Source: Seiridium cupressi (lineage: Eukaryota; Ascomycota; Sordariomycetes; Amphisphaeriales; Sporocadaceae). Taken from it: a stretch of 64,000 nt of DNA. The translations under genes were made by a program, and so were the position numbers. The DNA lies in the NCBI GenBank assembly GCA_036674765.1, contig JARVKI010000008.1, positions 620,001 through 684,000 of the forward strand. Reading direction: 5' to 3'. A model generated the notes under the pieces. The model saw nothing but the letters and a program-made list of their open reading frames with translations. It was not told the origin of the DNA and did no database searches. Within the stretch, counting starts at the first letter, position 1. Every line of letters starts with the position of its first letter. Below are positions 22,024 to 54,073 of this stretch, in pieces.

Positions 22024-23017
22024 ATGTTGTCAAACACAAAGACTTCTGGGTTGTTCCAGGTGAGTACTGTGTCCAAGACCCATACATCGAGTTTTTCATG
22101 CTGACCCATCAACTTGACAGAATATCATGGCCGTCCGATCCCATTTGGCCACGCTCTTTCTATTCACCATAAGCGACTTCAAGACCGTTGTCGCGCCGCA
22201 GAGCGTTTTCGCCATTTCCATCGTGCTATGCACCACGGCCCAGCAATACGATGTAAAAATTCTGATGGAGCGAACGCCACTCATGATAGGTTGGATCTGG
22301 CTTCACCTACTCATCGAGAACATCTCAAATCAGAGAATGCCTCAGTCCATTTTGGAAGACAAAGAAAACAAGCCGTGGCGCCCCGTCGCGTCCGGACGGA
22401 TCACGCCAGAAAGCGCGGCGACCCTGCTGCGCATACTCATCCCGTCGGCCCTTTTCTTCAGTACGTCCCTCGGAAGCATTACCCCTAGTGCCACGCTGCT
22501 GGTCATGATATGGTTGTACAACGACCTGCAGTGCGACAGCGTCGGCATCGTGCACCACAACGTCCTCAACGCGGCAGGGCTGGCCTGCTTCGGGTGGGGC
22601 GCCGCCAGCGTGCTCGTCGGAGTCGCCTTCGAGCGGCCAGATCTGCTCTTGCGGTGGACGCTGATAACTGCGGCGGCTGTTGCGACGACAGTCCACGTCC
22701 AGGACCTCCCGGACATGGTGGGCGACCGAGCCCGCGGGAGACAGACTATGCCGCTCGTGTACGGGGAGAACTGGGCCCGGTGGAGCGCTGCCGTCCTGAT
22801 ACCAGCCTGGAGCTATGCTTGCTTGCTGTTCTGGCAGCCTTCAACGACCATCAGCGCGGGCTTGTTGGCATTTTCGGGCTTGATGAGTATCTTGACCGTT
22901 GTGCGACGGGATCAGTACGCGAGCGCGATCGCATGGAAACTATGGTGTGTATGGGTGTCATTCCTGTATTTACTTCCGATGATTGCATCGCCAGATAAAC
23001 TTGTGGGACCATCATGA
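22024..23017 (+). CDS. UbiA-family membrane terpene cyclase/prenyltransferase
   Basis: Two exons: a short first one, 22024-22059 (12 codons), then 22121-23017, giving 310 residues. The small exon and a 61-bp intron supply the start MLSNTKTSGLFQ and join in phase 0 to the block SHLATLFLFTISDFKTVV, the usual N-terminal block of fungal members. Most of the rest is hydrophobic, with about seven to eight membrane helices. The first acidic motif is the variant ILEDKENKPWRP (residues about 90-100), the form I associate with fungal UbiA-type terpene cyclases such as the fumagillin one, instead of NDxxDxxxD. The second is VQDLPDMVGDRARG with Asp at about 207, 210 and 214. These bind Mg-diphosphate of a prenyl donor such as FPP. 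It is likely the scaffold- or prenyl-forming enzyme of the cluster. Whether it cyclises or transfers is open. Confidence 0.85.
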
Positions 23018-23447
23018 GCTGCCTGCAGAGGGTTGGTGCTGTATCAAAAGTCATAGGTAGCCAGTTAGCTTCGTTGTCTGCGAAGGCCTCAATGATCCTT
23101 CACAACAATGCTAATACCACCTAATATGTTGCAAGGACCCTTGTAATGAAAGACCTATTATTGGACAGAAGCCATTAATAAACACCCTCGTGCGTTGAAT
23201 GCTATGCTGCGGATAGCCCGATGGAGTGGTACCTCACCAACCAACAAGACACATGCAGGACCAAGTTTATGTGCCGCAAACTTGGGTCCACAAAAATGGC
23301 GACAATGGCTCAAGACATATTCATTGGGAAATAACAATGCCAATGTATCAATGAACTGTGAATTTTGACTTCACACCTCTTTCGCAACCCTTTGAAACAC
23401 GCGCACCTCTTCTCGTACTCATCATACCAGAAACTGTCGTTACGTCG
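23018..23447. other. Intergenic between UbiA and P450 genes
   Basis: These 430 bp hold the promoter of the P450 gene. The P450 frame is open back to 23358, so part could be leader. No motif stands out. Confidence 0.4.
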
Positions 23448-25007
23448 ATGGGTTACACCATCTTCTCCGCCCTTGCTGGGCTCGTGCTGTTCGTATTCTG
23501 GCTTCAGCGGCGTCGTTCTGAGACGGCTTCGGCTACGAAAAGTCATGATTGCGAGTCTGCAGTGACACACTACTCCAAAGATCCTTTCTTGAGTATGGAC
23601 TTCCAGGTCAAACTCTTTACGCAGATCCCATTTCCATATTCACTTCACCAGCGACACGGACATACCTACCAAGCCCATGGCTGGGCGTCGAAGCTGCCTA
23701 CAATCTGCACGATGAGTGCCCAGAATATACGGACAATCAATACATCGAAGGACTATGGCGTCGAGCCGACGCGACTTCCCGGGATGGAATACTTCTGCGG
23801 CAAGGGATTTATCACTACTGATGGCGATACTTGGAGCCAGTCCCGGAAATTGCTGAAACCATCATTTGACTACAACAACATCAAGGATATCACAATCCTG
23901 CAAGAAGAAGTTGACAAGCTGATCAAACAGCTACCAAAAGATGGCTCCGTCATAGACTTCCAGCCTCTCCTCTACATTATGGTAATGACCACCCGCGACC
24001 CTCGTCTCATACTATCATGACACTGACAACGTTTGTCTTCAGTTTCTCAACTCGGCATTGTACTTTGTGCTGGGTGTCCATCCCTCGGACCAACTGACTC
24101 GCGCCCCATTGACAGCGAACGAATTCGTTCAGTACTTTCATAAGTCCCTGGTCTACAGCATGTTTCGAACGATGCTCGGTCGAGCATGGAGTCTCGTACC
24201 ACAAGGTGGATACAAGCGCACCTACGCTATAGCCCATAACTTCTTGGATTACTGCATCGCGCAAGCAGAGGGGAAGTCTCTAAGAAGTCGAAGTCTGATA
24301 CAAGGGCTTCTCGCATACACCGATGACCCAACTTACATTCGGAGCCAGGTCATCCAGTCAATGATGGCGGCGCAGGATACTACATCGGAGTGTCTGACGA
24401 ATGCACTGTTTCTTTTGGCACGTCACCCGCAATACTGGCAACAGCTTCGCGATGAGTTTCTTAATAAGCCTGAGAGCGCTCTATCTGCAGAGAGCTTACT
24501 GCGCTCCAAATGTCTCCACAACATTTTGTATGAGAGTAGGTGACCAGTCAATCATCCTCATGAAAGCTTTATACTAATCGCAAAGCAAAAGCCCTACGTC
24601 TTTACCCCATCTTCCCTCTTATAAGCCGCAAAGCTCTGCACGACACGCAACTTCCCACTGGAGGAGGTCCAAATCACGATCGACCCATCTTTGTGCCTCA
24701 AAGATCAATGGTCGTCATGAGCTACTATGCACTGCACCGCGACCCTGACATGTTTGGCGACGATGTCGAGGCCTTCAGACCCGAGCGCTGGGATCACATC
24801 AAGCCGACGCAGTGGGAATTTCTTGGGTTTGGTGGCGGCAATCGCGCATGCCTCGGCCAACAAAAGGCTGTCATTGAAGCATCGTACGTTCTTGCCCGGC
24901 TTTCTCAGGCGATCGCGAGACTGGAGCCAAGAGACAACCGGCCGTGGGAAGGGAAGCTGAAAATGACTTGCAAGAGTGCCAATGGGTGTAAAGTATCAGT
25001 TTCGTAA
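23448..25007 (+). CDS. Cytochrome P450, CYP52-like
   Basis: Three exons (23448-23981, 24043-24535 and 24592-25007) give 480 residues. Start choice: the Met at 23448 opens a membrane anchor, MGYTIFSALAGLVLFVFWLQ. An in-frame Met at 23358 would add 30 residues before the anchor and is less likely. WSQSRKLLKPSFDY (C helix) and DGSVIDFQPLLYIM are CYP52-type. The I helix reads AAQDTTSE. The splice choice at 24535/24592 rebuilds the K-helix ExxR as E-T-L-R-L-Y-P (Glu342, Arg345). The haem loop is FGGGNRACLGQ with Cys429 as iron ligand. CYP52 enzymes oxidise alkyl or fatty chain ends, so terminal oxidation of a terpenoid or fatty chain is plausible. It reads the same way as its UbiA and dehydrogenase neighbours. 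Confidence 0.93.
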
Positions 25008-25469
25008 GACCTTCAGAAACCCTCGTTCCTGATAGCTTATAAGAAAATGAGCTGCATCAAGATTGGAATCTGGACACTGAGAATATACACGGACAATTAA
25101 CAGCGCGTAATTTTCGTAGTCCCTACTGGATGGGGCCGAATTGTATTGTCCAAAGACGGGCGATTCTCATCATACATGCCAGTCAGGAACAGGTATGAGT
25201 GGGTCAGTCTAGTGTGCTCCGGGCACTGGCGTTTTTGCCGTATGTGCTGTATTTAGATGCCAGGGTCGAAAAAGGCGTATGCAGGAGCACTGTTGGTACT
25301 CAGCAGAGTGGTGGGTACTCACAGTGGACAATACCCTCAAAACGTTACCCTTTTGCTCAGCATCCATGTCTCTTGCGCATTTTATTCTCGTTCTTATTTT
25401 CCCTTTCCTCGATTCCGAGTAAAAAATCTTCAAAACTCTGATTGTCAGTGAAAACCCTAATCACACAAC
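25008..25469. other. Intergenic between P450 and SDR genes
   Basis: About 460 bp, no gene. It holds the promoter of the dehydrogenase gene, with a pyrimidine-rich stretch just before the start. Confidence 0.4.
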
Positions 25470-26662
25470 ATGAGCCAGACTGGTACCAACAAGCCGAAAG
25501 GCACCGTCGTCCTAACTGGAGCGAATGGTGGGCTGGGCAATGCCGTGGTCAGCAGGATATTATCTCAGCCCGAGCTTCGTTCCTATCATGGAGTTTCCGC
25601 AGTCCGTGATGCATCATTTGCCGCGGCTCTACATTCAATTTTGGAAAATGATCAAGGTCATGACGGAGAACATCGCCTACATCATACAAATGATGTTATT
25701 TCGTTGGATCTAGCACGATTGGATAGTGTCCGTCAGACCGCCGCGGCCATTAACGAGCGAGTCAAATCCGGCGATATTCCACCTATCCGTGCATTAATCC
25801 TCAACGCCGCTTATCTGGAGTTTGAGCAGCAGACGTGGACCGACGATGGGTTCGACACAGCGTTTGCAGTGGCATATCTGGGTCATTGGCTGTTGGCAAT
25901 CTTACTTTTGGAGAGTCTTGACCGAGACCACGGCCGCATCGTTGTAATCGGCAGCTCGGCGCATGAGTAGGAATATACCCTTTCCCGCATGTGAGCATTT
26001 AGTAACATTACTTAATCATAAGTACGAAGGATCCGCGCAACAATGCAGGTGCCCAATACATAGATGAGCGTTGGCACACCATCTTCCACGACAGCACTGA
26101 GCCGATTGCAAAAGGCACCTGGAGTACGCTAAAGGAGGACTCCTTGTTCAGAAGTGGTTACAGACGTTACGGCGCTGCTAAGCTATGCCAAGTGATGATA
26201 ATGTCAGTTGTTCTCTCAATTGTTCGGTGTCAGTTCTAATACTTCCCATGTGGCAGCCCCGAATTGCAGAGGCGGATTGACAAAGATCCAGCCCTCCATA
26301 ACATCTCCGTTGTCGGTATTGACCCTGGGTCGACCCCAACCACACTTGTGCGACGCGGAGACTGGAGGATTCGTGGGCTGTGGACTTATATCATGCCTTG
26401 GCTCGTGGTCATACTTACCTGGTTGTGGCCCAACGGAACCAATCGCACAACGGCCAAGTCTTCGAGAGATATTCTCGCAGCGGCCTTGGATACCAGTCCA
26501 GTCTGGGGCGAAAAACCAAAAGGTCTGTACCTGGACGGCGAAATCCCCAAAGACATGGCTGCTGAGGCACGAGATCCTAAAAAGAGGGAGCAATTGTGGC
26601 AAGACACCCTCAACTACACCGGCTTGTCAGGAGGGGAGACGGTCCTCGCCAATTGGCAATGA
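25470..26662 (+). CDS. Short-chain dehydrogenase/reductase
   Basis: Three exons (25470-25966, 26023-26202 and 26257-26662) give 360 residues. The N-terminus has the Rossmann motif LTGANGGLG (TGxxxGxG, residues 16-23). LILNAAY is the NNAG-like strand. The catalytic Ser lies in VIGSSAH, and the catalytic pair in YRRYGAAK is Tyr215 and Lys219. VGIDPGSTPTTLVRR follows as in classical SDRs. At 360 residues it is longer than the usual 250-300; the extra C-terminal part has a hydrophobic helix (WTYIMPWLVVILTWLW) that may attach it to a membrane. The likely role is oxidation or reduction of an alcohol/carbonyl made by the neighbouring P450 or reductase domain. It converges on the MFS gene, with 234 bp between the stops. 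Confidence 0.9.
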
Positions 26663-26896
26663 TGGCTTGCTATGGAAGCGATAATGAAGACGTGGCAGTA
26701 ATCACCGAGATAACGTGGACCTCAATGCGAGCGATACATCAAAGCAAAAACTAGCACTTATTCTATTTTCAACCTAGATTTCAAGTGCCCTGCATATACT
26801 GGCACAAAACCCGACCGTCATGATTCTATCATTCCGGCATGCTTGATCATAACCTCGACCATCCCAACAGTCGATCACCTAGGCACGCGATGCCAA

Positions 26897-28663
26897 TCAG
26901 TATCCACTGTCGTCCACGCCATTCTCCTCGTACAGCTCCAAACTATACTTGGCAAATTGGCTCCTTGCCCTGATTCGTTCTCCGTACTTGTTAAATAGCT
27001 TCGGAACGACGCAAAAGACCGTCCCCAAGGCGGCTATCACAGACATGGCGACATTCGCGCTCAGTTGTTCAAACATGCGCGGCGCAAACAACGGGAAAGT
27101 AGCCGACAGGATGGAACGAAGCAGGGCCACGGCCGCAAACCCGCTGGCAGAATAACTGAGGTAGCTATCCGCCACGTATCCGACGAGGACAGTGTCGAAC
27201 TCGTTGAGCGCGTAGCCGATAAAGACCAAGGCGAGAGTGGGCACGATCCAGGGCAGATCGGGAACGCGGGGCGGGATGGTCCACGCGAACCACCACAGCC
27301 CGATGGCGAGGGCCGGGGCGCCGAGGAAGAAGCCGAGCAGCTTGTCCTCGGGCGCGAGGACGCGGCCCTGCCGCTTGATCCGCGCCACGATGCGGTCGTC
27401 CAGGAACCGCGTGAAGACGCTGAGGATGATGCCCAGCCCGATCGCGAGAAAGGGCAGGGAAGCAGCTTCTGTGGAGAAGCCAAGGTCCTCGTACACCGCC
27501 GGCAGAGACACGGTGAATAAGTAGATGATGGCAGCGGCGACGGCGCTGATGACTGCGACCATGAAGATTATGGGTTCGGTGAACAAGAGCCGAGCGGGAC
27601 GGCCCAAAGCCAGGCGGACGAAGGCGCGGACATCGGGTGTGAAGTCGGGATCGAGAGCCTTGAGATCGTCTAGCCCGGAGCTGTCCCGGATCATGGCCAC
27701 TTCGCGGGCAAGGAGTAAGGTAGGTCGAGACTCTCGGAGAGTGAAGAGGAAACCTGTCGTGGTCGCGGAAATAATGGCAGCAATGTAAAATACCCATCGC
27801 CTGTTACCATTCGTCAATAAGTAATACAATAGTAGTGATGGTATACTGGACTCACCAGTCGAGCGCGACTATAATGTACGCACTCATGATTGGCCCTAGA
27901 GCCATTCCAAGGTTGGATATCATGGCCCAAAAGAAAATGCACCATATCCGGTCCTTGGCGTTGGACAAGTCTTCGATACTCCCGGGGGTGATGGTGGTCG
28001 GGATCCCAGAGAGAACTCCAGTCATGAAACGACCGATGACTATGCCAGCCACCGAAGGAACAACTGCAGTGAAGACACAGAAAATACTGTAGAGCCCCGT
28101 GCTCCAAATGTACAGTTTCTTTCGCCCAAAGGATTCGGAGTATGGAGGGAAGATGACTCCGCCGACGCCTTGTCCCAACAGATAGCTTGTCACGTCAGAA
28201 TAAAGTCCGGTTGTCTGCTCAGAGAGCATTGCGGCGATACGTACAGTGTAACGAAGATGAATACCGACAGGGTCGTCGAGATGCCGAATTCATGTTGGGA
28301 ATTGCTAGCAGCAGCAGCCTGTATCGTAAAGCATGTCAGCTACTGATACCAGCACCGAAAATACTTGAACTCACGCCTGCGCTGTTGATCGCGGTGCTGG
28401 AAGCATGTCAGTTCTCTTGATGCCCATGTTTCTAAGGGAGGATGAGGCGGGTCATACGTGTACACATCCACCCAAATGATCAAGCCCAAGTCCCAGATTT
28501 TACGCGCTTTGCTCCAGTTGCGAGGATGACGTGGATTTGATCGCGACCAACGCACATATTGCCCGTCCGCCGAGAATTCCAATCCGTGTTCCTGGAGTAT
28601 AGAAAGACGAGACGATGCGGGGACGGCATCGAGACTGACGGCGGGCGCCTTGAGTTGGTCCAT
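26897..28663 (-). CDS. MFS transporter (drug:H+ antiporter type)
   Basis: Five exons (28663-28458, 28396-28375, 28318-28245, 28185-27856 and 27800-26897) give 511 residues, normal for the DHA family. Exon 2 is only 22 nt but is needed: it supplies TTAINSAG and keeps the frame. Landmarks are the N-terminal HPRNWSKARKIWDL, then the loop FPPYSESFGRKKLYIWSTG (the MFS signature between helices 2 and 3), then FMTGVLSGIPTTI and ALGPIMSAYIIVALDWRWVF (helix 5/6 motif). About twelve membrane helices can be counted. It probably exports the cluster product across the plasma membrane. Its promoter is shared with the divergent oxygenase gene and carries one AGCTGACTT copy. Confidence 0.92.
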
Positions 28664-29329
28664 GCCGAAAGAGTTAGAACAGCAATTTCTGACAGCAAGG
28701 GAAATGGGAACTTCAGGCTTTGGCGAGCTGGGAGCGATCCGGAACGATGGGGAAAGGGCATGAAGGATGGATAAGTTGAGATTGACGTTTTGGGAAAAAC
28801 GAACTTCTCTTTTTACGAGTTTGATCCGAGTGCCGTCAACGCTACTACATCTGTGTTAGTGCAATGCAGGAGAAGGGAAAAGGGGAGCGTGTGTTCAGAT
28901 GAGTATCCGCCGGCACTCGTGACTCAGCAGAATGTCTAATCCTTGTCAGGCATATACTAAGCTCTCAATCCCCCTGTTTCTGATGTACTGTCATGAATGT
29001 ATACTGTATGTACATAAGGGGCATAAGCTGACTTTACATAGATCGTAGCTGCACAACTCTGCGTTTGCGTGTGCGTTTGTGTGTCTTTCTGGGAACGCTG
29101 ATGTTTATTGCGTAGACGACGATCGAAAGATCACAGAGACCAAGTTGTGCAAGATGATCGAAGCATTTTGGTCGCCATGAGAGTCTCAGCGGATATTAAA
29201 GGATGTGAATTTGCGCTTGCATTTCCTACAAACTTCTTTTAAACATCGCATCTCTCAAGTGTAGTTTATCAATCTTCTTGACCATTCCATCTCATTGAGC
29301 TACTTGGTAAAACACCATCAAGCAACAAA
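28664..29329. promoter_or_regulatory. Divergent promoter between MFS transporter and 2OG oxygenase
   Basis: These 666 bp drive two genes in opposite directions. They contain TAAGCTGACTTT at 29024-29035, the same motif seen three times in the other divergent promoter of the cluster, and a TGACTCA (AP-1/bZIP core) at 28920-28926. The cluster has its own bZIP gene, so both are candidate control sites. Confidence 0.55.
29024..29035 (+). promoter_or_regulatory. Candidate cluster operator, copy 1 (TAAGCTGACTTT)
   Basis: Matches the first copy in the PLP/synthetase promoter over all 12 positions. It is about 295 bp before the oxygenase start and 360 bp before the MFS start. The function is inferred only from the repetition. 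Confidence 0.45.
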
Positions 29330-30469
29330 ATGTCTCCTCTTCCTCTCATTGACTTCTCCGTTGCCTACAATGGCACCGCAGCCGAGCGCGCCGAATTGGC
29401 TGCTACCATCACTGAGCAACTCAGAAAACATGGAGCCATGCGCCTCATCAACACTTCAATCAAGACAGAGACCATCCAGGAAGGGTTCAAATGGGTAAGA
29501 TCGACCTTTGACAATTTCCCGAAGTTACAACCACTGATGATCTATGTTCGACACAGGGCAAGAAGTTCTTTTCGCTCCCCATTCATGTAAAGGAAGCCAT
29601 TCCCAACGAACGCAATGCGGATCCTCAGCGAGGTTGGAGCTATGTTGGATCGGAGAACACCTCGAAGCTCGACATGACCGAGAACGAGGGTCTGGAAGAC
29701 GAGAAGGTCAGCTCGACTACCCCCTGACTGGTACTTGAAGAAGAAATCACTGACATTCTCTCTGGCCTTATAGGAACACTTCGACCACAGCTCTGCGGGT
29801 GATACTCAGTACCCGAGCAAGTGGCCGGCCGAGTCCAGCATTCCAGGCTACCGCCAGTTCATGGAAGACCTGTTGGAGAAGTGCCACTCTGTAGGCTGGG
29901 AAGTGTTGGAGCTCTTGGAGCAAGGTCTCAAGCTCCCCAAGGGCGAACTGATGCAGCGCTGCTGCCCATCCCCCATCATCGACGAGCTTCGCATGAACTA
30001 CTACGCTCCCATCTCCACGGAGAAGCTGGCCACGGGCAAGTACCGCCGTGCCTGGCCGCACACGGACTTTGGCATGATCACGCTCCTCTTCCAGGACGAC
30101 GCGGGCGGTCTCGAGGTGCAGGACCGCTACAGCTCCAAGCCCGACGCCTTCATCCCCATCGTGCACGAGCACCCCACCGAGGTGAACGTGTACGTGAGCA
30201 ACAGTCTCGAGTACATGACCAACAACTACCTCAACGCGGGACTGCATCAGGTTGCCACTCCTATCGACATGCACGATGTGGCCAAGGGCATCCTTCCCGA
30301 GCGTCAATCCCTTGCCTGTTTTATCAAGCCCAGACGCGAGGTCAATGTTGGGCCGATGAAGCAGTTCATCACGGCGGAGAACCCCAGGGCCTACGAGGAC
30401 TTGACTGGACTGGAGCTTCACAGGGTCAGGGTTGGAAAGCTGTACGGAGCGCCCGTCGAGGCATACTGA
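29330..30469 (+). CDS. 2-oxoglutarate/Fe(II) oxygenase, isopenicillin-N-synthase-like
   Basis: Three exons (29330-29494, 29557-29706 and 29774-30469) give 336 residues, the usual length. The N-terminal DIOX-type half has PLPLIDFS, then KKFFSLPIHVKEAI and GWSYVGSENTS. In the C-terminal jelly roll the iron ligands are visible: WPHTDFGMITLLFQ (His201, Asp203) and NAGLHQV (His263). The 2-oxoglutarate-binding pair is in LPERQSLACF (Arg282, Ser284). Fungal enzymes of this group hydroxylate, desaturate, close rings or form ether bridges (LolO of loline biosynthesis is one). It shares its promoter with the exporter gene and is convergent with the hydrolase gene. The substrate is unknown. Confidence 0.92.
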
Positions 30470-30886
30470 GGCCGGCCTCTGTGATTGTGTGTCCGACGTA
30501 ACCAGGGAGCGATTGGCACAACCAGTGGTTGGTGAAGCCTTCCATTCTTTTGTTGTCTCACTCACCTTCGATGGGGGACTGAGAGGATTGACTTGACACA
30601 CTTCCATCCTTTGTGGTTCATCTGTCCTTTTGGCCTGCCGGGTTTCATTTCTAGCTCTTTTTCCTGTACTTTTCACAACTCTACAAGGCAGAGCTCTCAT
30701 GTAGCGTCGCGGGGAATGCTAGGCAGCTTCAGCTTCTCAGCACGTTTAGTCTGTCGCTCACTGGAATCAATTGAAGTCCTTCCTTTAGCTCTTGGCCATT
30801 TCGCCTTAAAACTTCATTATCGTGCCTTGAATACATTTGAGTCAGTCAGGACACAGTACCGTGCATAGACCATTCTCAACCAGAAC
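30470..30886. other. Intergenic between convergent oxygenase and hydrolase genes
   Basis: These 417 bp separate two stop codons and hold only 3' untranslated DNA as far as I can see. Confidence 0.45.
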
Positions 30887-31665
30887 CTAAGATCTCCGAG
30901 CCAAAGCAAGGCAGCTGAACAGCAGGTCCTTTCCTCCTCCCTCCGCGTTCAACTTGATGATCCTCTTGATGCCCAAGTCCAGCGCTCGCGGGCTGAGGAC
31001 GTCCTCGTTGTCGGCAAGACTTCCTCTCTCCAGAGGACCCATCCTCGACCCCTCGAGCTCCCAGAGCTTGCCGCCGGCCTTGACAAAACTCACAAAGTGC
31101 CCTCCGTCGCGGTCATCTGTCGGATCCGCATTGCTGTCGCCTGCCTGCTCGACCGACTTGTGGGCACGCTCAAAGGGCTCGCTATTGTACAGCATCTCGG
31201 CGCGCTTGTCTATGGTCAAGGGAATGGCGAGGCTCCGTATCGCCGCGAGATCGGACTCAGGCTGGATAAAGTCGACGGCGGGACCGTTGATCACGCTATG
31301 GAGCAGGCCGATGGAGCCGCAGGCGTGGCCAATGGTCTGCTTGAACCAGATGACGGGCTCATCCGGACCGGAGCCGGCGTAGGGCTTCTCGTCGGCGTCT
31401 TCGGCCTCGCGGTTTCGGCCCCAAGCTGGCGTGAATGGGATGATGACCAGCAGGGCCAGAGCAGGTCGAGGGATATGTGAGAGCAGTTCGGGCTCATCTA
31501 GAGAGTAGACATCGTAGAACTGGAGCTCGGATGATAAACCCAACTTTTTTGCCAATTGATTCATGACATCGGGGTTGTTCTCTGCCATCTGCCATGAGCT
31601 CGGAAAACATGGTCTGCGAGGGCTTGGGTCCCCTTACCAAGCATCTTCCATGTCTTGCCCGCCAT
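30887..31665 (-). CDS. Ubiquitin C-terminal hydrolase (UCH, peptidase C12 family)
   Basis: Two exons: 31665-31638 (28 nt) and 31581-30887, giving 240 residues. The 28-nt first exon is not obvious but rebuilds the standard start MAGKTWKMLENNPDVMNQL. Family blocks are FYDVYSLDEPELL, then WFKQTIGHACGSIGLLH with the oxyanion Gln91 and nucleophile Cys97, then GGHFVSFV with His171. The fourth position, Asp in human and yeast enzymes, is Glu186 here (LWELEGSR). UCH enzymes cut small adducts from the C-terminus of ubiquitin. There is no obvious need for it in a biosynthetic pathway, so its position between the oxygenase and the PLP gene is odd. It may be a housekeeping gene trapped in the cluster or a resistance copy. 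Confidence 0.9.
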
Positions 31666-32220
31666 TTTGGAAGATCGGTAGGTCAAGGGCGTCAAAGATG
31701 TAAATATTGCGAGGTGAGGTGATTGAAGACTTGGGCATGTATTATTACTAGAAGCTGGATGTCATGATGCAGGGGGAGAATCGGCCTTGCTTGTGGGGGA
31801 TATTCATTTATACGCGCCAGTCTCTGCCTCCATTTTATAAGGCAGGTAAGACCTTTATTAGGCGCCTACCCAATAGGTACGCATTAAACCCCCATGTACA
31901 GTAAGTACGCAGACGGCGAAAAGAATCATTGGTGCCTGATCAGCCGGTAAATGTATCTTTAGAGCTTAGAATGCAGTGAGAACTAGTGCCCTTCTTTAGG
32001 AGGATTTTAGGCTTCTAGCGGATTCCCCGCGTTACAGAAGAGACCCTTGCTCTGTCCCGCGCCCCTCAATATTTTCAGCATTGACTTCCCTTTCGGCTGA
32101 CTGAGCTGACAGGACAAACAGATATCATGTGGGGTATACGATCCACTTTTTGGCGAGCCTAGACGGAATAGGGCCATTGTATTCGGAGTTCTTGAGTCTC
32201 GCTATCTACATTGATGAACA
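31666..32220. other. Intergenic upstream of the hydrolase gene
   Basis: These 555 bp lie between the stop of the PLP gene and the start of the hydrolase gene, both leftward. No gene is seen. GGCTGACTGAGCTGACAG near 32096-32113 holds two GCTGAC cores but not the full operator candidate. Confidence 0.4.
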
Positions 32221-33633
32221 TCAGACCTCGTTCTTCACATGCGCTCGTACTACACGATCCAGGACCTTAACAAAAATTTGGACATCTTGGAGGTTGTTGT
32301 AGTGAACCAGGCTCACTCGAATTACACCTTCGTCATCCAGCCCAAGCACGTCATGCACAGGTCGGAGGGAGTAGGCGCTTCCTGCCAAGATGCGGCACGG
32401 AGACGTCTCATGAATGGTCTTGGCGATCAACTTGGAGGATACTCCGTTGACAGTGAACGAAACCAGAGATACCCGTAGCTCCGGATCGGACGACTTTTCG
32501 CCGTAGATGGTGAACCATTCCGGGTGGTCGTTCAGGTAGTCGAGCAGAGGTTGGACAATGACTACCTCATGAGCAATAATGTTGTCCCACCCGATGCGCC
32601 GAATGTACCGGACTATCTCAAGTACGCCGTCCTCATACTCGAAGCAGTTGGTGCCCAGGCGGACCTTCACGTCGAGGGGTGTGGGATCAATGTGGTAGTG
32701 GTTCAGGCTCGTCATGTGGCGCTGCTGGACGGAGCTGCGGGCGTACATTTGTGCAAAGTGCGGGCCGAACAACTTGTACCAGCTGAAGAAGTAAAAGTCC
32801 GCATCCATCGCCTTGACATCAATGGGCCGGTGAGGGGCACATGCCACTCCGTCGACCGAGAGCATGGCATTGGGAACCGTGTGCACGACATCTGCAATTG
32901 CGCGAATGTCGTGTATCGTACCAAAGATGTTGGATATATGGCCACAAGCGACCAGCCTAGTCTTGGGAGACAGCAGCGGCTTGAGAGTTTCGATGCTGTC
33001 TTTGGCGTTGGTGTTGCCTTTGCCACCAGGCGGCGACCACCACTTGATTTCGATTCCCAAAGAGCGTGCCAGAGCCACCCATGATGTACAGCCGGCCTCG
33101 TGGCACAATGTCGAAACGATCATTTCCGAGTCCGAATTGAGCAACGGCCGCAAGGAGGTAGTCACACTACGAATGAGGCCACTCGTCGATGGTCCGAAGG
33201 CTGCACTCGATTGTCAGATAAAGATTTGGACACGCAGTGTAATGTTGCGTTGTTGATGCGGACACCTACCAATTTCATTGGGCTCAGCGTTCATGAATGC
33301 CGCGAGTTCAGCGTACTTGAGATTTCTCTCATCAATTGTACGCTGGCTGACCTGATCGCCACCGATGAAGTCAAGTTGATAGGTTGACATGGCGTTTGCA
33401 ATACTGGCTTGACCATTAACTCTAGCCCCGTCGACTGTTCATACCAAACAATGAAGAGACTGCACTTACGCCTTCACGGCTCCGTCGTACACTAAGCTGC
33501 CCGTGGCATTATTGAGAGGAATTCTTTCCCCGCGCAACGCTGGAAAGTGTTGTCGGATTTTCTCGACCTCGTAGGGGCCTGTTGTGCCGTTCGCTTTGCG
33601 AACATCTGCATGGCTGGAGATAGTGGCGGTCAT
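32221..33633 (-). CDS. Class-V PLP enzyme, cysteine-desulfurase-like (LolT-type)
   Basis: Three exons (33633-33470, 33403-33270 and 33200-32221) give 425 residues. The N-terminus reads IRQHFPALRGERIPLNNATG, typical of fungal members. Then come FGPSTSGLIRSV (phosphate-binding loop), STLCHEAGCTSWVALARSLG, MLSVDGVACAPH with the cofactor Asp at about 216, and FFSWYKLFGPH with the PLP-binding Lys at about 242. GTNCFEYEDGVL is another family block. I see no Cys-persulfide loop like that of true NifS/IscS enzymes, so sulfur transfer is unlikely. A related enzyme, LolT in loline biosynthesis, is a PLP-dependent Mannich cyclase that builds a bicyclic amine. A similar C-C bond-forming or decarboxylating job on an amino acid is plausible here. 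It shares its promoter with the divergent synthetase gene. Confidence 0.85.
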
Positions 33634-34329
33634 GTTGGCGAAGGTCTATTTCCGATGACGAGAATAAAGGCGAAAAAAAATAAAAGCTCTTCGTAACGTC
33701 CTTCCGGAGATGCACGCTGATTATATAGACTTAAGGAAATGAAGGGCCAACTAATGGGATGTATACTGCCAGACTATAGCGCCAACGAATGAGTTCTGAA
33801 TGAGATCCGCCAGAATACCAGCCAGAGCAGTTCATCATCAAGCGAGATCCGGGCGGCGACTGTGCATTGACGGTTTTCCCTCAAAAAACCTGCGTGTGGT
33901 GTAAGCTGACTTTCAGGACCATGTTTCTAAGCTGACTTATTCGCTAAAAACCACTAGATCATTTTAGCTGACTTTGCAGGGAGGAGTATAAGCAGATCTC
34001 GTCATGAGCGCTGCACTTGGTATCATGAACTTGCTAATGGTTTTGGTATTGACAGAATGACCCTAATTCGCCCTCATCAAGCAACAGTCAGGCGTTACTC
34101 TTGACTCATCCTCGCTCCAATGAACAACTGTGATGCGCAGTATTGTATTTGCTACGACAATTTAACATGGTATTAATGGCCTAGTGCACCAATGTTCATA
34201 TGATTAACTGCACACCTCAACCTATATTGGTACTCGCACTCTGTCCATTGAAGTCTAGGGGTCAAAACATAAATCTAATGCCTGCTGTCTTTTTGCATTT
34301 CCTTGTGGAGCCTGAATATCGAAACAATC
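33634..34329. promoter_or_regulatory. Divergent promoter between PLP enzyme and NRPS-like synthetase
   Basis: These 696 bp drive two core biosynthetic genes in opposite directions. Three AGCTGACTT copies lie within 33902-33975, and a TGACTCA lies at 34102-34108. The repeated element is the best candidate for pathway-specific control in this window. Confidence 0.6.
33902..33975 (+). promoter_or_regulatory. Three copies of the candidate operator AGCTGACTT
   Basis: TAAGCTGACTTT at 33902-33913, TAAGCTGACTTA at 33928-33939 and TTAGCTGACTTT at 33964-33975, all on the same strand, starting 26 and 36 bp apart. The core is identical in all three. Confidence 0.55.
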
Positions 34330-37300
34330 ATGTCTTCCTCGATAGCCATCCCGATGGCCCCCCAGAGCACACTGGAAGTCTTTTGCTCAACCCACCAGGT
34401 CCCACCCGGATCGGTGCTGAAACTCGTGTTCGCGACACTGCTCCATCAATACTTTGATCTTCACGAGTTCACATTCGCTGCAGAGCACATAGAGGCCGAC
34501 CATAAACACACCCACGATCCAACAACCAGGAGTCAACAGGTGAAATACGCCTCAGAGCTCGCTTCAACCACCTCGATCCGCGCGGCCTTCCACCTGGGCG
34601 AGACAGGCCTACTGTCAGATGATGATCTGGCGCCGCTCCTTGTCAATCATACGACCACTGCTACGCAAAACGGTGGACTGCATGCCAATAGGCTGACAGC
34701 AGGCCTCATCTTTGCGAACAAACCTGACCCTACGGCAGCAACGTTGACTTGTAGTCTTGATTCACAGCATGTAGGCGAACTTGTGACATCGAGCCACTTG
34801 TACACTTTTCGCTGATCATTTCCATACAGAATGGGCTCGGCCTTGCTGTATACTTTGACGAAGTTACATGGTCAGCACATGTGCTTTATGATATCGATCT
34901 CGTCTCTGAGTTTGTGGCCACAGGCTTCGTGGACGCCTTCGCCGCAGCGCTCCAGTGCGTCTCTTCGAGCCCACTCGACACATTGATCACGAGCCTAGAT
35001 ATCTGCGGGCCACACAACCAAGCGATCATATCCAAGTGGAATCAGTATTCCATTTGCGCTTCTAATAAACTACTCCACGAATTGGTCGGACGAGGTTTCA
35101 AACATAAGCCCGATGCAATAGCCATTCTATCCTGGGATGGGCAACTGTCGTATTCGGAGCTGGACAAGCGCTCGTCTAGCCTCGCAGCATACCTCATGGA
35201 AACGTATGACGTGAAGCCGGGTAAAAAGGTCGCTTTGTGCTTTGAAAAAAGTCTCTGGGCTGTCGTTTCCATGCTTGCGGTACTCAAAGCTGGAGCGGCT
35301 TATTGCTGTCTCGATCCGAGCCACCCACGTGCCCGCCACGAGTCGATCATTCAAACGCTCGGTGCGCCCCTCATCCTCACATCGACTCTACAACAACACC
35401 GGTTCGATGGGCACAAGATATTGGTCCCGACTGTGGAGCTTGCGAGCCAGGAGCGCCAGTACCAGCCAACAGATGTGCAGCCGAGCGACACCTGCATCGT
35501 AGCCTTCACTTCTGGCAGCACCGGAACTCCCAAAGGCATTGTGCACACGCACAACTCTTTGGTCACGGGTATCCTTTCCAACGCCACGCCGCAGCGTCTC
35601 GACCGGGAGGGCGTCTCGACCTTCCAGTGGTCCAACTTCACATTTGACGTCAGCATGGTAGAGATCTACGCGCCGCTGATCTTTGGGGGCCGCATCTGCA
35701 TACCCTCGGACGAGGAGCGCGTCAACAATGTGGAGGAGACCATGAACAGGATGGCCGTCAACTGGGCCTACTTCACCCCCTCGTTTGCGCGCTTGTTCGA
35801 GCAATATAGCATTCCCAGTCTGCAGACCTTGCTCATGGGTGGCGAGGTCGTTACGCCTGATGATATAAATGCGTGGTACAATCGCGTCAAGGTCATTCAT
35901 TGTAAGTCTCATCCGCAATACTCTTTTTCTTTTCCATTTCCGAGCCCTCAAGTTCTAGAAAGATGTCATTTCTGTAGTCAGAGAGATGTAACGCTAACCA
36001 CTGGCTTCAGCATACGGACCAGCCGAGTCGGCCACATTCTTCCTTTACGAGTTCAACGAACCTTGTTCCAAAATTGTACCTATTGGACCGGCTCCAAACA
36101 CATATTCATGGATTGTGAACCCCAACAATCCCGAGCTTCTGTCCCCTCTGGGCGCCATCGGCGAAATGCTCTATGAGGGACCCGGCCTCTTGAAAGAATA
36201 TCTCGGTATGCCCGAGAAGACGCAAGCAGTCTTAATCGATGCCCCGTCGTGGAGAAGGAGTCTCGATGCGCCAGCGCCGACGTCCAAGCTCTACAGGAGC
36301 GGTGATCTCGTACGCTACCTGCCCGACGGAACAATGATGTACATTGGGCGGAAAGATACGATGGTCAAAGTGCGGGGGCAGAAGCTCGAGGTGGGAGAAG
36401 TAGAGTCGGTCATGCGAAAAAGCCTAGGCGGATTGACTCAAGTAGCTGTCGACCTGGTGGATCTGCAGGGCGGCGGACCCAAGCTGGTGGCGTTCCTTCA
36501 ATGCTCAGAAGGCCAAGGTCTCAATGGAAACACCAACGGCGCAGGTTCTGGTGCTTCTGCATTAGATGGGAAGATGAAGCTCATTTCTCAACTCCGCTCT
36601 TGTCTCATGGACACTCTGCCGGAGTATATGGTTCCTCGGATATATATTCCTCTTGCCTCGCTTCCAACGACGCCGAACGGAAAGCTCGACCGTACAAAAC
36701 TCAAGGAGCATGCTCAGAGTCTTCCGATGAGTGAGCTATTGAAGTACTCCCAGTCTGGCCCAAGCGAGGAGGTCCTGACCGACATACCCCAAGACGATAC
36801 CATCGCGCTCGAGGTCAGCGAGATACTCGACAAGGTCCTGCACAGATCAGAATCCAAGGGGGAGAATGCTCTCAAGGGAAAGAATGCCACATTAGAAGAT
36901 TTCGGCCTCGACTCCTTGAGCCTGGTCTCCCTTGCGCGGGCCGTCAATGACTTTTACGGCCTCAAGATTCCCATCAAGACTTTCAGGAAGGTCAATTTGA
37001 GTGTTCGGGATATTGCCGACATTGTGCGTAGCCAGGACAAGGTTGTATCGCAATCTGAAGAAGACGCCAGAGCAGCGAAAGTCTTGCAGGACATTGAGGA
37101 GCTCGACAAGGGTCTCGCAGGACTGTGCCCTGACCAATACGTATCACCAAAGAAGATTGTGCACACAGGTCAAAATGTGGTGTTCTTGACGGGCGCGACC
37201 GGTTTCCTCGGCAGCCAAATCCTTCGACAGCTACTGGCTCTCCCCAGCGTGTCGAAAGTCATTGTCCTAGTCAGGGCAAAGGATGCCAGCACTGCCCTCC

Positions 37301-38409
37301 AGCGGATAGTCACTGCAGCCACCACAGCCAGATGGTGGTCATCCAAGCTGACGGACCGTATTGAAGTCTGGCTGGGAGACCTTTCACGACCGGGGTTGGG
37401 CGTTTCCGCGGAACAGTGGGCACGCCTCGAGGGAACCTGCGCCGAGGGGTCCGAGGCGGTCACAGCCATCATCCACAACGGCGCCGTCGTCAACTGGTCC
37501 TCGAGCTACGAGCGGCTACGTGCCACGAACATCCTCAGCACGGTGCAAATCCTCGAGCTCGCGTTGGCGGGCGCTGGGCCCCTGCGGCACCTGACTTACG
37601 TCTCGGGCGGCGAGATGCACCTCGCAGAGGGCGTCGTGGCAAAGGACCCATCGCGTCTCTCCTCCGCAGACGGCTACTCGCAGTCCAAGTTCGCATCAGA
37701 TGTTCTGGTCGAGCGGTGCGTAGCTCGCGCCCCTGCCGACAGGCGTGTCAACATGGTCAAGCCCGGCATCATCATCGGCACAGCGACCGAGGGCATCTCC
37801 AACACGGACGACTACATCTGGCGGCTGGTCGCCGGAGCATGCGAGGCCGGGGCGTTTGTCGATGGCGAGCAGGATGCTGTAGTCTGTCTCGCGGGTGCAG
37901 ATCATGTTGCGCGACGCATTATTGATGCGTGCCTAGGAAGCCATACCGACGGCAACAGTGCGCCCCATGCGGCTCTGAGAATGATGCAAGGCGTCCCCGT
38001 GCGAGACTTCTGGAGGATGGTTTCCGAGGGCACGGGCATCACGCTGCAGGCAATGGATTTCCAAGACTGGCTCCCAGTCGTGGTTGCAAATGTTTCCCGC
38101 AAAGGGCCATTGCATCTCCTCTGGCCTGTCATGGAGTGGGTGGAACAGCGCAAAGGCAGAATTGGCGATGCCCGCCTGGCGACATGTAAAGCCAGCAGCT
38201 GTGTTGGCCACTACCTTGGCCCGGATCTCGGGCCAGACAAGCAGGCACAAGTTGCGGAATGCACACAAGGCAAGGAAACCAGAGATGAGACTTTCCAAGC
38301 GTTGCGAAAGAGCGTAGACTATCTTTCGAGCCTGGGCTTTTTGCAGGGCGGGACAGTTCTGGGTAGTGCAGGGCAGGATGTGTTTCGCCGGTCTGCAGTG
38401 AGTAGCTAG
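34330..38409 (+). CDS. NRPS-like synthetase, adenylation-thiolation-reductase (A-T-R)
   Basis: Three exons (34330-34770, 34830-35901 and 36011-38409) give 1303 residues. The first 200 residues are a degenerate leader resembling the tail of a condensation domain, without an HHxxxDG motif. A domain: FTSGSTGTPKG (A3, from 373), FTFDVS (A4, Asp420), SYGPAES (A5, Ala where Thr is usual), YRSGDLVRY (A7), GRKDTMVKVRGQKLEVGEVE (A8) and PNGKLDRTKL (A10). The T domain, FGLDSLSL, has Ser806 for phosphopantetheine. R domain: LTGATGFLGSQ (from 897) binds NADPH, and YSQSK gives Tyr1060 and Lys1064. Asp at A4 is the mark of alpha-amino acid substrates. The protein should load one amino acid and release it as an aldehyde or alcohol. 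It is the core enzyme of the cluster. Of three in-frame Met near the start I chose 34330. Confidence 0.93.
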
Positions 38410-39119
38410 GTTAGGTGACTGGGACACGAGCATTTAAACTTTCACTCCTTTTGCCGTCTTTATGGGCTTTGAAGGATTCTGTAGTGTAAGCAGGTATCTA
38501 GCTAATCGCTGAAGAGAGATCAATCCAACAATATAAGCAGCGGTAGACACTAGTTCAGCGTGCTTTTCGCCCTGGTAAAGCACCATTTCACATCATGTGT
38601 TATTATGTCCATGGTCTCCTGGATGGGAGCACAAAACCTCCAGCACAGCCAATTTCTTGTATCTATATAGTACATTCTGGAGACAAGCTGCCATTGGAGT
38701 GCTTCTTGTTTTGAAGATTTCTCGTCTAACGAGAGGAGATGTTTTGTACAACTATCTCTATATACAGACACCTTCCGAAAGATGATGTTCCGCTCATGAG
38801 TTCGTAAATGACAGCAGATGAAGTCTATGTTATGTTTTGGTCCTTCTTGACTGATTGATCAGACTGACACAAGAAAATAATGTAATGTTCAAATCAAGTC
38901 GATGGTACTTTTTTCGCAATCAAATTCTCTTATCCAGAAACCCGTGGCATTCGGCGGCCGAGGACGTGTCCACGATATACATCATGGAGATGATATATGC
39001 TGTGAGTTGTGCTTGCATTCTTGGCCCATGCACCATCATGGACTTGTGCAACATTGCACTCACAAACAGCCAGATATTAGGGAGCTGTTATGGTCAGTGA
39101 AATCGTTTCAGCTCATGTC
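38410..39119. other. Intergenic between convergent synthetase and bZIP genes
   Basis: These 710 bp lie between two stops. An open leftward stretch of 55 codons (39084-38920, starting LPNIWLFVSAML) follows a good acceptor site and could be a further exon of the bZIP gene, joined from a donor at 39137. Otherwise nothing is seen. Confidence 0.4.
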
Positions 39120-40452
39120 TTAACAGTCAGAACGCACCTTTATCTGTATTATACTGGCCATGTGCCTCCAATCTATCGATTGCGATCTCGAGCCGTACGA
39201 CTTCAGAGCATCGATGAAATCCGGTCCGTCCGAGTCGGCAAACACACGAAGCTCGGACAGCAGGACCTCTTCTGCCGAGTGAAGGATGTGGTCCTTGCAG
39301 CGGTGAGCCTGATCGCCAGCCCAGTTCGGGCCCCCTGCACAGATCTCTTTGAGCAGTTCCGACAGCCCATGCCTGTCACTGGACTCCCGCGCCGCCGACC
39401 ACACGGGCCCGTCGGGTTTTGCTGTATAATAGTGGCGGATCGCCGTGTCGAAATCTTTGAACCCCGCATCCTCTGAGCACTTCAAGAGGAACTCGATACG
39501 CTGCTGGAGCGTTGCCGTGGCCGTGAGCCGGTCCCCGGTGCACCCCAGTGATGACCTATGCGCGCCTCCGGCGTATTCAGACCACGAGGAGCTGCTCGCT
39601 GCCCGGGCGCCCCGGGCCGAGCCAGCGCTTGATTCCACTCTTCCGACCTGCTCGAGGAAATTGGCCTCCTCGTAGTTGTCTATCGTCCAGTCACCGGATG
39701 ATTGCTGGTGAAAGTCCTTGCGACTCTTTTGGCGCCCTTCACGTTCTGAGGCCAACGTTAGCGGCTCGCTGCCACAAGTTGAAGTACCACAGAGCTCTTT
39801 CTCATATGAAACATGAATAGCATAGATGTACAGTGAAATATGTGCTTGTCTTACCAATAGTTTGATCGAATTGATTTGCTGCTGCACGAGACGGTTCGAT
39901 GACAGTCTGCTCGTCAGGGTCACCTTGCAATATGACCTCGGCCTGGGCTTGCAGATCTCGTGAAGGCGACCAGAACATTCCGGATTCCTCTGAAAATGGG
40001 GTTCTCAGCGATTCCTGTGCTATCAAAAAGGCAGAACTATCCAACTCCTAGAGAAGGCGCCTCGTTAGGCTCAAAGAGATGATTAAAATGAGTCTTGGCA
40101 AATACCTTTTGTGTACTAGGCATTTGTAACCTAGTTTGGGTTTCGAGGTTCTCCTGGGAAGCCTTTGGGGTTCGTGACTGCCAGTCGATTGGTTTCCCTT
40201 CCGGTGTTCCAAGAACTGCGAGCATGCTTGTCTGAGTTGCAAGCTGTTCTTCCAAGTCTCGAATTCTCTGCTTCATATTCCGGCCTTTTTCACATTAATA
40301 TTGTGCCATGCCATATCGTCTTGGTAAGAACACTGACGGTAATTTCTCTGCGCCAATCGATTCTGTGCTCTCCTCTTGTCAGCAAAATCGCTCATTATTC
40401 TCCAGTCGTCTTCGGGCGCTACTACAGTTGAAAGTTCGTTTGGAGGAGTCAT
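39120..40452 (-). CDS. bZIP transcription factor, candidate cluster regulator
   Basis: Four exons (40452-40338, 40284-40106, 40047-39855 and 39745-39120) give 370 residues. The basic region begins in exon 1, KRRAQNRLAQRNYR, and the intron lies inside it. The next exon gives RNMKQRIRDLEEQLAT, so the fungal pattern NxxAQRxxR plus the leucine-zipper start is rebuilt at the proper spacing. The zipper is short. The rest is Ser/Gln/Glu-rich with a conserved-looking helical part (WTIDNYEEANFLEQ, then LQQRIEFLLKCSEDAGF). The C-terminal end is uncertain: reading through stops at 39120, while a donor at 39137 could splice to 39084 and add 54 different residues. A bZIP next to the core synthetase and on the edge of the cluster is the natural candidate for its regulator. 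Confidence 0.82.
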
Positions 40453-45994: not shown

Positions 45995-47337
45995 TGTTGC
46001 GGTCAACAGCGCACTAGTTCCAGTGGAGAATGTACTCTACTTGCTGAATCTAACTCCACCTTTCCAGTTCGTTTCCTCCTCGGGTGGTCATACTCTCCTC
46101 ACGACCGCTATACAGGGGGTGATGAGGTGTAAGTCATAGTTATAGACCGGCAAGCAGATGATGATGAGGCACGATTATTCCAATATTGAATGTATACAAC
46201 TGGTTGTTAGCAGTCGTGGGTGCCTTGAGAGTCCCGAAATGTGAGCAACTCGAAACACCACACGCCATTGGGTTGGACTAATGGTGTGGCAATATTGCAG
46301 CTGAGACATGCCAATAGGATAATTTGCCATGACGGACTTGGCGATAAATACAAGTATTCTGGTGGTACAGCATCGGGGTTCAAGCCAGAATGGCTTTCCT
46401 TTCTTTCCCCTTTACCTTTCCCTTTCCCTCCCCTCTCTTCTTTCTCTCAATACCTGAAGCACCCTCCCAGAGCCAGCCAATCCTTCAAGGGCGGAAGGGC
46501 AGAGTTATATTTAGTAAGAAAATTATATCCGACCAACCCGTAGGCAAAGAAGGAGTATTTAGGCTGGTACTAATCGACCGGGTGACCGCGCAGTCGAGGT
46601 CGGCATCGAAGGCGCGGCGAACCTCATGCTAGATAGGATGCCTCCAACGAAGGAAGCCCTTACTCAGCAACAGACCATAAACTGGATATGCAGACATCCC
46701 TGCTGTCAGACTTGATTGAAGCAATACCATTTCCAGAATGTAACTCCCCCGTCACTTGTGTGACCAATGCCCCGCAATCAACGCTCCAATAGATCCCGTC
46801 GAGAGTACATATGGGATGCAACCACGGAAAGCTGTGAATAAGCCATGCTTACACAGAAACCCCCGACGATATTGTTGTATGTGATGTACGCACGTCCTGT
46901 CACTATGCACAAAGGTACCGTGCCCGGCCCCCCTTCGTTTCCATACCCGCGCCATCATGCTGTCACAACATGCGCAATAGCATATTAGGCATCACCATGA
47001 TTGACCCTTTTTTTCCCCCTCCAACGAGGCTGCCACCGTGCATGATCGAAGCAATGTTGTCTACCAGTCAGTGCTCCTTGTCCTTCCCATTCACATGCAT
47101 TTGAGGCGATCTAATGCAAGACACGTTGCGTTGGTGTCACGTATCAATCATCACATGCTTGTTTGTCAGTATCGTGGCATAGTTTACAATGTGTTGGGTT
47201 GACTACCTAGATGGACTAGCCTGTGACGACAATCCGAGCCTAGGTGGGCATAAAACGTGATGGGACACCCTTGGAACTCCCCTCACGCGCAATGCCCCTC
47301 TGCCTGACTGATCGAGTTTCGCAAAGAAGACCACAAT
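45995..47337. other. Intergenic, no gene recognised
   Basis: About 1.3 kb. A pyrimidine-rich stretch lies at 46395-46445 (CTTTCC-type runs). The open frames are short and without family features. Confidence 0.45.
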
Positions 47338-48432
47338 ATGGCACTGTCAGTACTATTGTTCTTGGAGGTGGCAGCAATCTTGGTTGGTATCCCTCTCTAA
47401 ATGACCATGATACATCTAACATATTACAGGGAGTCGGAAGTGTAGTTTACCCCATAATCTACAACCTTTACCTGTCGCCGCTGAAGCGCTTCCCGGGGCC
47501 GTTACTCTATACAGCTACTAGCATTCCTTTCGATATCGATAGCGTGAGAGGCAACGCGCTGGATGTCCTTACTCGCCTGCATGACCAGTACGGCCCAGTG
47601 GTGCGCGTTCGTCCGAATGAACTGTCATATATTGATGGCCGAGTGTGGAAAGATGTGTATGGGTTTCGCTCTCACCACCAAGAATGGTTCAAGGGCGATG
47701 GACTCCCTTACCTTAATGGCGTTCCGGGCATTATTAGCTCCCCGAAAGATCTTCATCGCCGCTATCGTCGCAGCCTGGCACATGCGTTCTCCAACCAGGG
47801 TCTCCAGGAACAAGCCCCTAGAATATTGGGACACGTGAACCGATTGGTCAAGGTCCTAGCTAAGCACAGCCAGACGGGGCTCGTTGATATGGTTCAGTGG
47901 TTCAGCTGGACCACGACCGACATCATCGGAGACCTGGCGTTTGGCGAGAGCTTCGGATGCTTGGAGACCGAACAAGAACATCAATGGTCAGCTTTGACCA
48001 CCAAATTCCTGCTCCCAACACTGCTCGTTGGCATTCTACAACGTTGGCATATGGTACTGTTGGCTCCAATATTACTTCCACGAGACATTTTCGAGGGATT
48101 GAGGTCAACTACTAAAGAAATCGCTGAAAAGTTACGGAAGAGAGTTTCTTACGGCCAAGGCCGTGGTGACTTCTTTGGCCGTCTTCTAAAACATGGCCTT
48201 ATTGTGGAAAATAAGGCAGACTTCAAGGAAACCAAAGAGGGCCAAGAAGGTGTTACTTTTGATGAGCTTAGAGAGCAACGCACAAGACCTGGTCTTTGCG
48301 GGATCGGAGACCACAGCCACGCTTCTTACTTTTACGATCTATTTCCTTCTGCGCAATCCACACGTCCTTGCCAAGGTCACAGGACTCATACGCTCGGTGT
48401 TCAGCAGAGCTCGCAAGATCCCTAATTACTAG
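47338..48432 (+). pseudogene. Cytochrome P450, truncated and frameshifted
   Basis: An N-terminal membrane anchor of the usual kind begins with the ATG at 47338 (MALSVLLFLEVAAIL). A likely intron ends at 47429, but the phases of the two sides do not match. The main frame then gives PIIYNLYLSPLKRFPGPLLY, VVRVRPNELSYID and a C-helix region RRYRRSLAHAFSNQGL. At about 48280 the frame is lost; the I helix continues in the next frame (QDLVFAGSETTATLL) and ends at a stop at 48432. The ExxR motif, the PERF region and the haem-binding Cys loop are missing, and I do not find them further right. It therefore cannot bind haem. The parent is of the secondary-metabolism type common in fungi. Confidence 0.85.
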
Positions 48433-49196
48433 GTATCTCTTCCCACACCCTTATGCCTATGCAGGCTTGTAATAGCAGAGATACGAACACATTTTAAGGT
48501 AACGACGACAGCGAGTCTCCCCCATGTCGAAAGGAGAAGGAAATCGAGTTTAGATTGGAACCTTCTAAGGCACCCCAAGATTCAGTACTAATGTGTAATA
48601 GAATAAGACTAAATGTTGAAGAATTCTTCAGTTAGTGGTTCGATTGGTGTCCTCTCCCATCGATCCAACGTGCCTCTGAATCAACAGTAGCGCGACTAGT
48701 GTGGAATGTAAGTTTCGGAGTAACGTTTCAAAAATCACATTAGTGACTGTAAGCAGTATGGAGGTAAATATTTCTCAACTAGTCTCAATCAAGCTCGTGT
48801 TGAGAAGTACTCCAGTCATCTGCAGCTTTCTGACAGTTCGGCTGCCAATACTCTGCCTGCTCCGACTGTTTCTCAAAGCTCCAGGGCTTTGATCAAGGAT
48901 TGGACTACCAGGTGAGGCTCGACAGTGCATTCTTATTTCATCCAGCCATGACAAGAGCTCTATCACCGGCACCAGTACGCGAGGCGGCCGGATACGGAAG
49001 AGTCACAGTTTCGACCTAGACTTATGATCTAGCGAGAGTCATACTTCTGTGTCGATCAGTGTTGGGCGGACCGCAAGCAAACGGAATTAAGCTCTGTTCT
49101 ACTCACGCCGGAACTATAAGATTATCACGACCTCTTTTTGCACATTAGACACATGCTAGCAGTCGACGACGGAATATTGATTCGTTATTTTTTCTC
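48433..49196. other. Intergenic after the P450 pseudogene
   Basis: No gene seen; I looked here for the missing haem-binding half of the P450 and did not find it. Confidence 0.45.

Positions 49197-51740: not shown

Positions 51741-54073
<2,333 letters not shown>

Follow-up and report, generated by a model that had tools for sequence, protein, structure and literature searches.

We analyzed a window of 64,000 nucleotides of the genome of Seiridium cupressi, a fungus of cypress canker (contig C8, positions 620001–684000, of an assembly of 45.4 Mb in 228 contigs). Between positions 22127 and 40452 the window holds nine genes, which we read, with a probability of about 0.5, as two adjoining modules: a conserved amino-acid pathway, in which a nonribosomal peptide synthetase (NRPS)-like adenylation-thiolation-reduction (A-T-R) reductase would make an aldehyde for a pyridoxal 5'-phosphate (PLP) enzyme related to UstD, and a sesquiterpene module. 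This reading starts from the observed gene set, its intact motifs, the linkage of the PLP and A-T-R genes in other fungi and a promoter word common to two divergent promoters. The best-supported core comprises an MFS transporter, a 2-oxoglutarate (2OG) oxygenase, the PLP enzyme and the A-T-R reductase, while the UbiA-type cyclase, the cytochrome P450 and a short-chain dehydrogenase/reductase (SDR) most likely form the neighboring sesquiterpene module, either separate or recently joined. An earlier note on this DNA had described nine intact genes lying together, and the gene models bear this out: all frames are open across GT-AG introns, and eight of the nine genes score above the Pfam cut-off of their family, the exception being a bZIP-like gene.

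A conserved pair of PLP enzyme and A-T-R reductase

The class-V PLP enzyme (32221..33633, minus strand, three exons, 425 aa; Pfam Aminotran_5) matched UstD best among the PDB sequences, with 386.7 bits, followed by FGM3 with 272.9 bits. It is 46–47% identical to UstD and has the catalytic Lys, and UstD was also its best PDB match by fold (FGM3 was not among the 50 entries listed in the fold comparison). In the phylogenetic tree the enzyme belongs to a clade of 10 rows (SH-aLRT 99) beside a separate clade of 11 rows that contains UstD (SH-aLRT 100). This kinship, with UstD first and FGM3 second, together with the fold, supports the C-C bond chemistry proposed in the earlier note, and decarboxylative aldol activity is predicted. 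The label "LolT-like" was instead changed to "UstD-related"; no LolT-labelled chain was present among the 60 PDB sequence matches or the 50 fold matches listed, a comparison that LolT itself stood outside. A role as cysteine desulfurase was rejected, UstD being nearer by sequence and fold, and for the homologue P0001 none of the 13 listed NCBIfam models reached its cut-off.

Some further observations concern this protein family. At one site the S. cupressi enzyme has VDGVAC, as UstD does, and the eight closest orthologues that were checked have VDGVAW there. The sole other homologue found in the genome (C113:11001-21000, 42% identity) has one stop inside the match and a P450 gene about 5 kb away, a neighborhood that recalls FGM1/FGM3. 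In Fusarium avenaceum, P0086 combines TauD-type oxygenase and UstD-like PLP domains in a single protein of 737 aa.

The A-T-R reductase (34330..38409, plus strand, three exons, 1303 aa) carries AMP-binding, PP-binding and NAD_binding_4 domains, and its spliced model equals the public S. cupressi protein P0121 letter for letter. By reading, the core motifs of the A domain, the Ser of the T domain and the GATGFLG and YxxxK motifs of the R domain are intact. The protein exceeds the TIGR01746 cut-off and stays far under that of TIGR03443 (318.4 versus 1030.1 bits), so that an identity as L-aminoadipate reductase (Lys2) was rejected. This architecture agrees with the earlier proposal of amino-acid activation followed by reductive release, which we accordingly keep as the predicted activity. 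The condensation (C) domain PF00668 gave no match in the whole protein (E up to 0.01) or in its first 221 residues (E up to 1). The A4 motif FDVS, in a region aligned to LgrA, is present in all 14 close A-T-R rows that cover it, and holds the alpha-amino-binding Asp, which we take to correspond to GrsA D235. Across the 15 close rows the A-domain code varies only at positions 239 (V/I/T) and 322 (S/A), with row P0135 truncated ahead of the first code position.

Conservation was compared by eye for the homologues of the PLP, A-T-R and UbiA proteins, using shared contigs and locus tags as genomic context. PLP and A-T-R homologues (best 120 of 795 and best 120 of 731, respectively) occur on the same contig in five other sources, including Ascochyta rabiei, Exserohilum turcica, Plenodomus tracheiphilus and Xylaria curta; in A. 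rabiei their locus tags are adjacent (EKO05_0006125 and EKO05_0006126). The two genes are a conserved pair, and a C-C bond-handling PLP enzyme is thus kept beside an amino-acid reductase across fungi as distant as Seiridium, Xylaria, Ascochyta and Exserohilum. No description of the pair was seen among the results viewed from searches of the open-licence literature, which omits most subscription papers. A homologue of the reductase with 76% identity is PFICI_08738, which the available part of one study names among the A-T-R enzymes of Pestalotiopsis fici, with no biochemistry reported there (PMC9605436). The pairing gives this protein a testable pathway context.

A promoter word shared by the core genes

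The MFS transporter (26897..28663, minus strand, five exons, 511 aa; PF07690, MFS_1, 113.8 bits) and the 2OG/Fe(II) oxygenase (29330..30469, plus strand, three exons, 336 aa; PF14226 and PF03171, DIOX_N and 2OG-FeII_Oxy) are divergently transcribed, as are the PLP and A-T-R genes. The word TAAGCTGACTT occurs on the plus strand once in the MFS/2OG promoter (29024..29034) and twice in the PLP/A-T-R promoter (33902..33912 and 33928..33938), where its shorter form AGCTGACTT is found once more (33966..33974, plus strand). All four occurrences of AGCTGACTT in the window fall within these two promoters, against 0.70 expected, and this count was reached in none of 100 shuffles; shuffling the promoter pair reached the same word count in 1 of 1000 cases. 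Genome-wide, TAAGCTGACTT occurs 23 times, three of them in the cluster, and the reversed control pattern 18 times. Because the word is common to both divergent promoters, the MFS, 2OG, PLP and A-T-R genes are probably co-regulated.

In the kilobase upstream of the UbiA, P450, SDR, ubiquitin C-terminal hydrolase (UCH) and bZIP-like genes, AGCTGACTT was not found. In the bZIP promoter the shorter TAAGCTGA is present, and the promoter of UbiA has two copies of the bare core GCTGAC. The AP-1 site TGACTCA, present once in each divergent promoter, was not used, its count in the window (11) being no higher than the 11.9 expected.

Among PDB sequences the 2OG oxygenase matched UcsF best (PDB 9ktp, 178.6 bits, residues 4–325 of 336), and its HxD motif and second His align with the UcsF iron ligands. 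Oxidation by this enzyme, as suggested in the earlier note, is supported by UcsF being its nearest match. Its label was changed from "IPNS-like" (after isopenicillin N synthase) to "UcsF-like", and the 36 PDB sequences matching it at E up to 0.001 include none labelled as that synthase.

The probable sesquiterpene module, the proposed pathway and its alternatives

The UbiA-type cyclase (22127..23017, plus strand, single exon, 296 aa; PF01040, 73.4 bits) is followed by the P450 (23448..25007, plus strand, three exons, 480 aa; PF00067, 147.4 bits), whose nearest PDB chains are of P450 BM3 type, and by the SDR (25470..26662, plus strand, three exons, 360 aa; PF00106, adh_short, 42.1 bits). By reading, the catalytic motifs are intact in these and the core enzymes (heme Cys and ExxR in the P450, YxxxK in the SDR, HxD...H in the 2OG oxygenase, Lys in the PLP enzyme). 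The motifs of UbiA-type cyclases are given as NXXX(G/A)XXXD (I) and QDxxDxxxD (II) in the available part of PMC11745945. Motif II reads QDLPDMVGD here and fits the pattern; over the 28 rows of the UbiA tree its Asp columns are kept in 28/28 and its Gln in 23/28. The region of motif I reads NQRMPQSILED, with N and ED kept (28/28 rows) and Q in place of Pb_BisA G100, a position that varies among the rows. With 44% identity to the Stachybotrys amorphane sesquiterpene synthase, the protein is a probable UbiA-type sesquiterpene cyclase.

Among the best 120 of its 184 homologues, P0241 is 89% identical and the others 38–58%. None of these 120 lies on a contig with a listed PLP or A-T-R homologue, and the UbiA proteins of X. 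curta and P. fici (48–49%) are on contigs other than those of the pair. Since the S. cupressi UbiA itself is missing from these 120, though the A-T-R reductase of the species is listed among its own matches, the database does not cover this gene fully and the absence is weak evidence. A block conserved in other genomes, which the earlier note named as a possible support, is found for the PLP and A-T-R genes, and not for the listed UbiA homologues.

The chemistry of every step is read from the enzyme families, and on this ground we infer the substrate, the aldol direction, the order of steps, the product and the place of the 2OG enzyme. The UcsF-like oxygenase would perhaps first oxidize the side chain of a small aliphatic alpha-amino acid. 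The A-T-R reductase would adenylate such an amino acid, load it onto its carrier domain and, with NADPH as reductant, set it free as an alpha-amino aldehyde. Removal of the beta-carboxylate of L-aspartate by the UstD-related enzyme would leave a nucleophile, which the enzyme would join to the aldehyde to give a gamma-hydroxy-alpha,delta-diamino acid that could cyclize to a nitrogen ring. Export would fall to the MFS protein, and regulation likely to the bZIP-like protein. The PLP enzyme kept beside the reductase could supply γ-hydroxy amino-acid chemistry; its substrate loop differs from the one in UstD, the engineered biocatalyst of this type.

Several results weigh against this proposal. The PLP enzyme is not a member of the clade that contains UstD, and where the UstD loop has I-C-L (positions 391–393) it has S-A-Y; its substrates may therefore differ from those of UstD. 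FGM3, its second-nearest PDB match, runs the retro-aldol direction, and one close A-T-R row (P0130) is without the carrier Ser. As for the promoter word, it was first spotted by eye and tested afterwards, and 64 of 5000 real sequence pairs reach a word count of at least 4; five of these 64 drew the same word, and nearly all the others AT-rich words.

The retro-aldol direction leads to an unlikely alternative, in which the 2OG enzyme would hydroxylate a gamma-carbon, the PLP enzyme would cut the Cbeta-Cgamma bond to give alanine and an aldehyde, and the A-T-R reductase would act on another acid. The known cleavage by FGM3 of 4-hydroxyarginine made by an oxygenase (PMC10967133, in its available part) offers a precedent, and the two-domain P0086 joins an oxygenase to a PLP enzyme; nevertheless, UstD is the closer relative by the bit scores given above, and the forward reaction better explains a reductase that makes an aldehyde next to an enzyme that uses one. 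We regard as possible, but doubtful, the single terpenoid-amino acid hybrid of the earlier note, made from a UbiA-derived sesquiterpene, oxidized by the P450 and the SDR, and an amino-acid part from the 2OG, PLP and A-T-R enzymes. In favor of the hybrid, the intact genes lie side by side and include a single transporter and a single regulator-like gene, the cyclase keeps its Asp motifs, and its promoter has the two bare cores. Nonetheless, the terpenoid part was not retained in the same pathway: the listed UbiA homologues, those of X. curta and P. fici included, share no contig with the listed PLP and A-T-R homologues, species without a close UbiA among the matches listed keep the A-T-R code, the UbiA, P450 and SDR promoters are without AGCTGACTT, and no C domain was found in the A-T-R reductase to join the two halves. 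Finally, it is quite improbable that the UstD-related enzyme joins an aspartate-derived unit by a C-C bond to a terpenoid aldehyde from the UbiA, P450 and SDR enzymes, and that the A-T-R protein then converts the amino acid so formed into an aldehyde whose ring closure yields a sesquiterpene alkaloid; if true, such an acceptor would mean that terpenoid-amino acid hybrids can be made by a route other than the known one through esters.

The UCH gene (family C12; 30887..31665, minus strand, two exons, 240 aa; PF01088, 179 bits), in which the usual ELDG motif reads ELEG, lies inside the cluster. Peptidic aldehydes can inhibit cysteine peptidases, and the gene could be a self-resistance copy against a product that inhibits ubiquitin hydrolases, an explanation we find very improbable. 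Indeed, the genome has 12 Peptidase_C12 matches on 10 contigs (including C8, C92, C135, C97, C6, C21, C117 and C228), the Pfam families found next to five of the other copies are unlike those of the cluster, and the UCH promoter lacks AGCTGACTT. Frames were scanned beside the copies on C228 and C21 (ten), on C97, C6 and C135 (ten) and on C117 (five): the Pfam families beside the C21, C228, C135, C6 and C117 copies were PKA regulatory subunit, ceramidase, CASP, GH3, transcription factor and multicopper oxidase, and the five frames scanned beside the C97 copy gave no Pfam family. In tblastn the cluster UCH showed 66% identity to the copy on C97 and, within a stretch of 99 residues, 78% to the one on C117. 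Given the many copies elsewhere, UCH was rejected as a part of the pathway, and its presence is probably incidental. A link between the promoter word and UCH was also dropped, as the word sites on C21 and C228 lie 5–9 kb from the UCH copies, among Pfam families unlike those of the cluster. The genome thus has an expanded set of C12 genes; beside the C135 copy, 8 kb (C135:67001-75000) have 22.5% G+C and no open frame of 150 codons.

Flanking genes and comparison with known systems

The cluster ends with the bZIP-like gene (39121..40452, minus strand, at least four exons, about 370 aa, 3' end uncertain). The basic-region consensus is visible by reading, in agreement with the label first given, whereas Pfam bZIP_1 scores 15.9 bits, below its cut-off of 27.6; for this reason, and because of the uncertain 3' end, the label is weak. 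The left flank has HET, phosphoketolase, dynamin and LETM1-like frames, and the right flank ankyrin, P450, phenol-hydroxylase-like monooxygenase, mannosyltransferase and CLP1 frames. The P450 and the phenol-hydroxylase-like FAD monooxygenase (47244-54073) are about 7–14 kb past the bZIP-like gene.

Among known systems, the PLP enzyme resembles UstD, the decarboxylative aldolase of ustiloxin biosynthesis in Aspergillus flavus, a ribosomal pathway, in its class-V PLP fold and catalytic Lys; it differs in having its own clade, another substrate loop and an adjoining A-T-R reductase. The 2OG oxygenase has a full-length match and aligned iron ligands in common with UcsF, which we take to oxidize isoleucine in the UCS1025A pathway; the cluster partners of the two enzymes differ. 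FGM3, of fusaoctaxin biosynthesis, cleaves the Cbeta-Cgamma bond of 4-hydroxyarginine and, like the enzyme described here, comes with an oxygenase partner; it is more distant, its partner is a P450 rather than a 2OG enzyme, and the available part of the source describes no A-T-R partner (PMC10967133). The cyclase belongs to the same family as the fungal sesquiterpene cyclases Fma-TC, BibS and Pb_BisA, with N...ED and QDxxDxxxD kept, and differs, as far as the available part of PMC11745945 covers, by a Q where motif I calls for G or A. A single-module synthetase alongside terpene genes is also found with AneB (aculene) and ThmA (CJ-12662), terpene-amino acid synthetases whose C domain esterifies, according to the available part of PMC10720950; the A-T-R protein instead has an R domain and no C-domain match. 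By architecture and intact motifs it is comparable to the clade I fungal A-T-R carboxylate reductases, amino-acid enzymes such as AsaC, LnaA and BrsA, from which, within the available part of PMC9605436, it is set apart by its pairing with a UstD-related enzyme.
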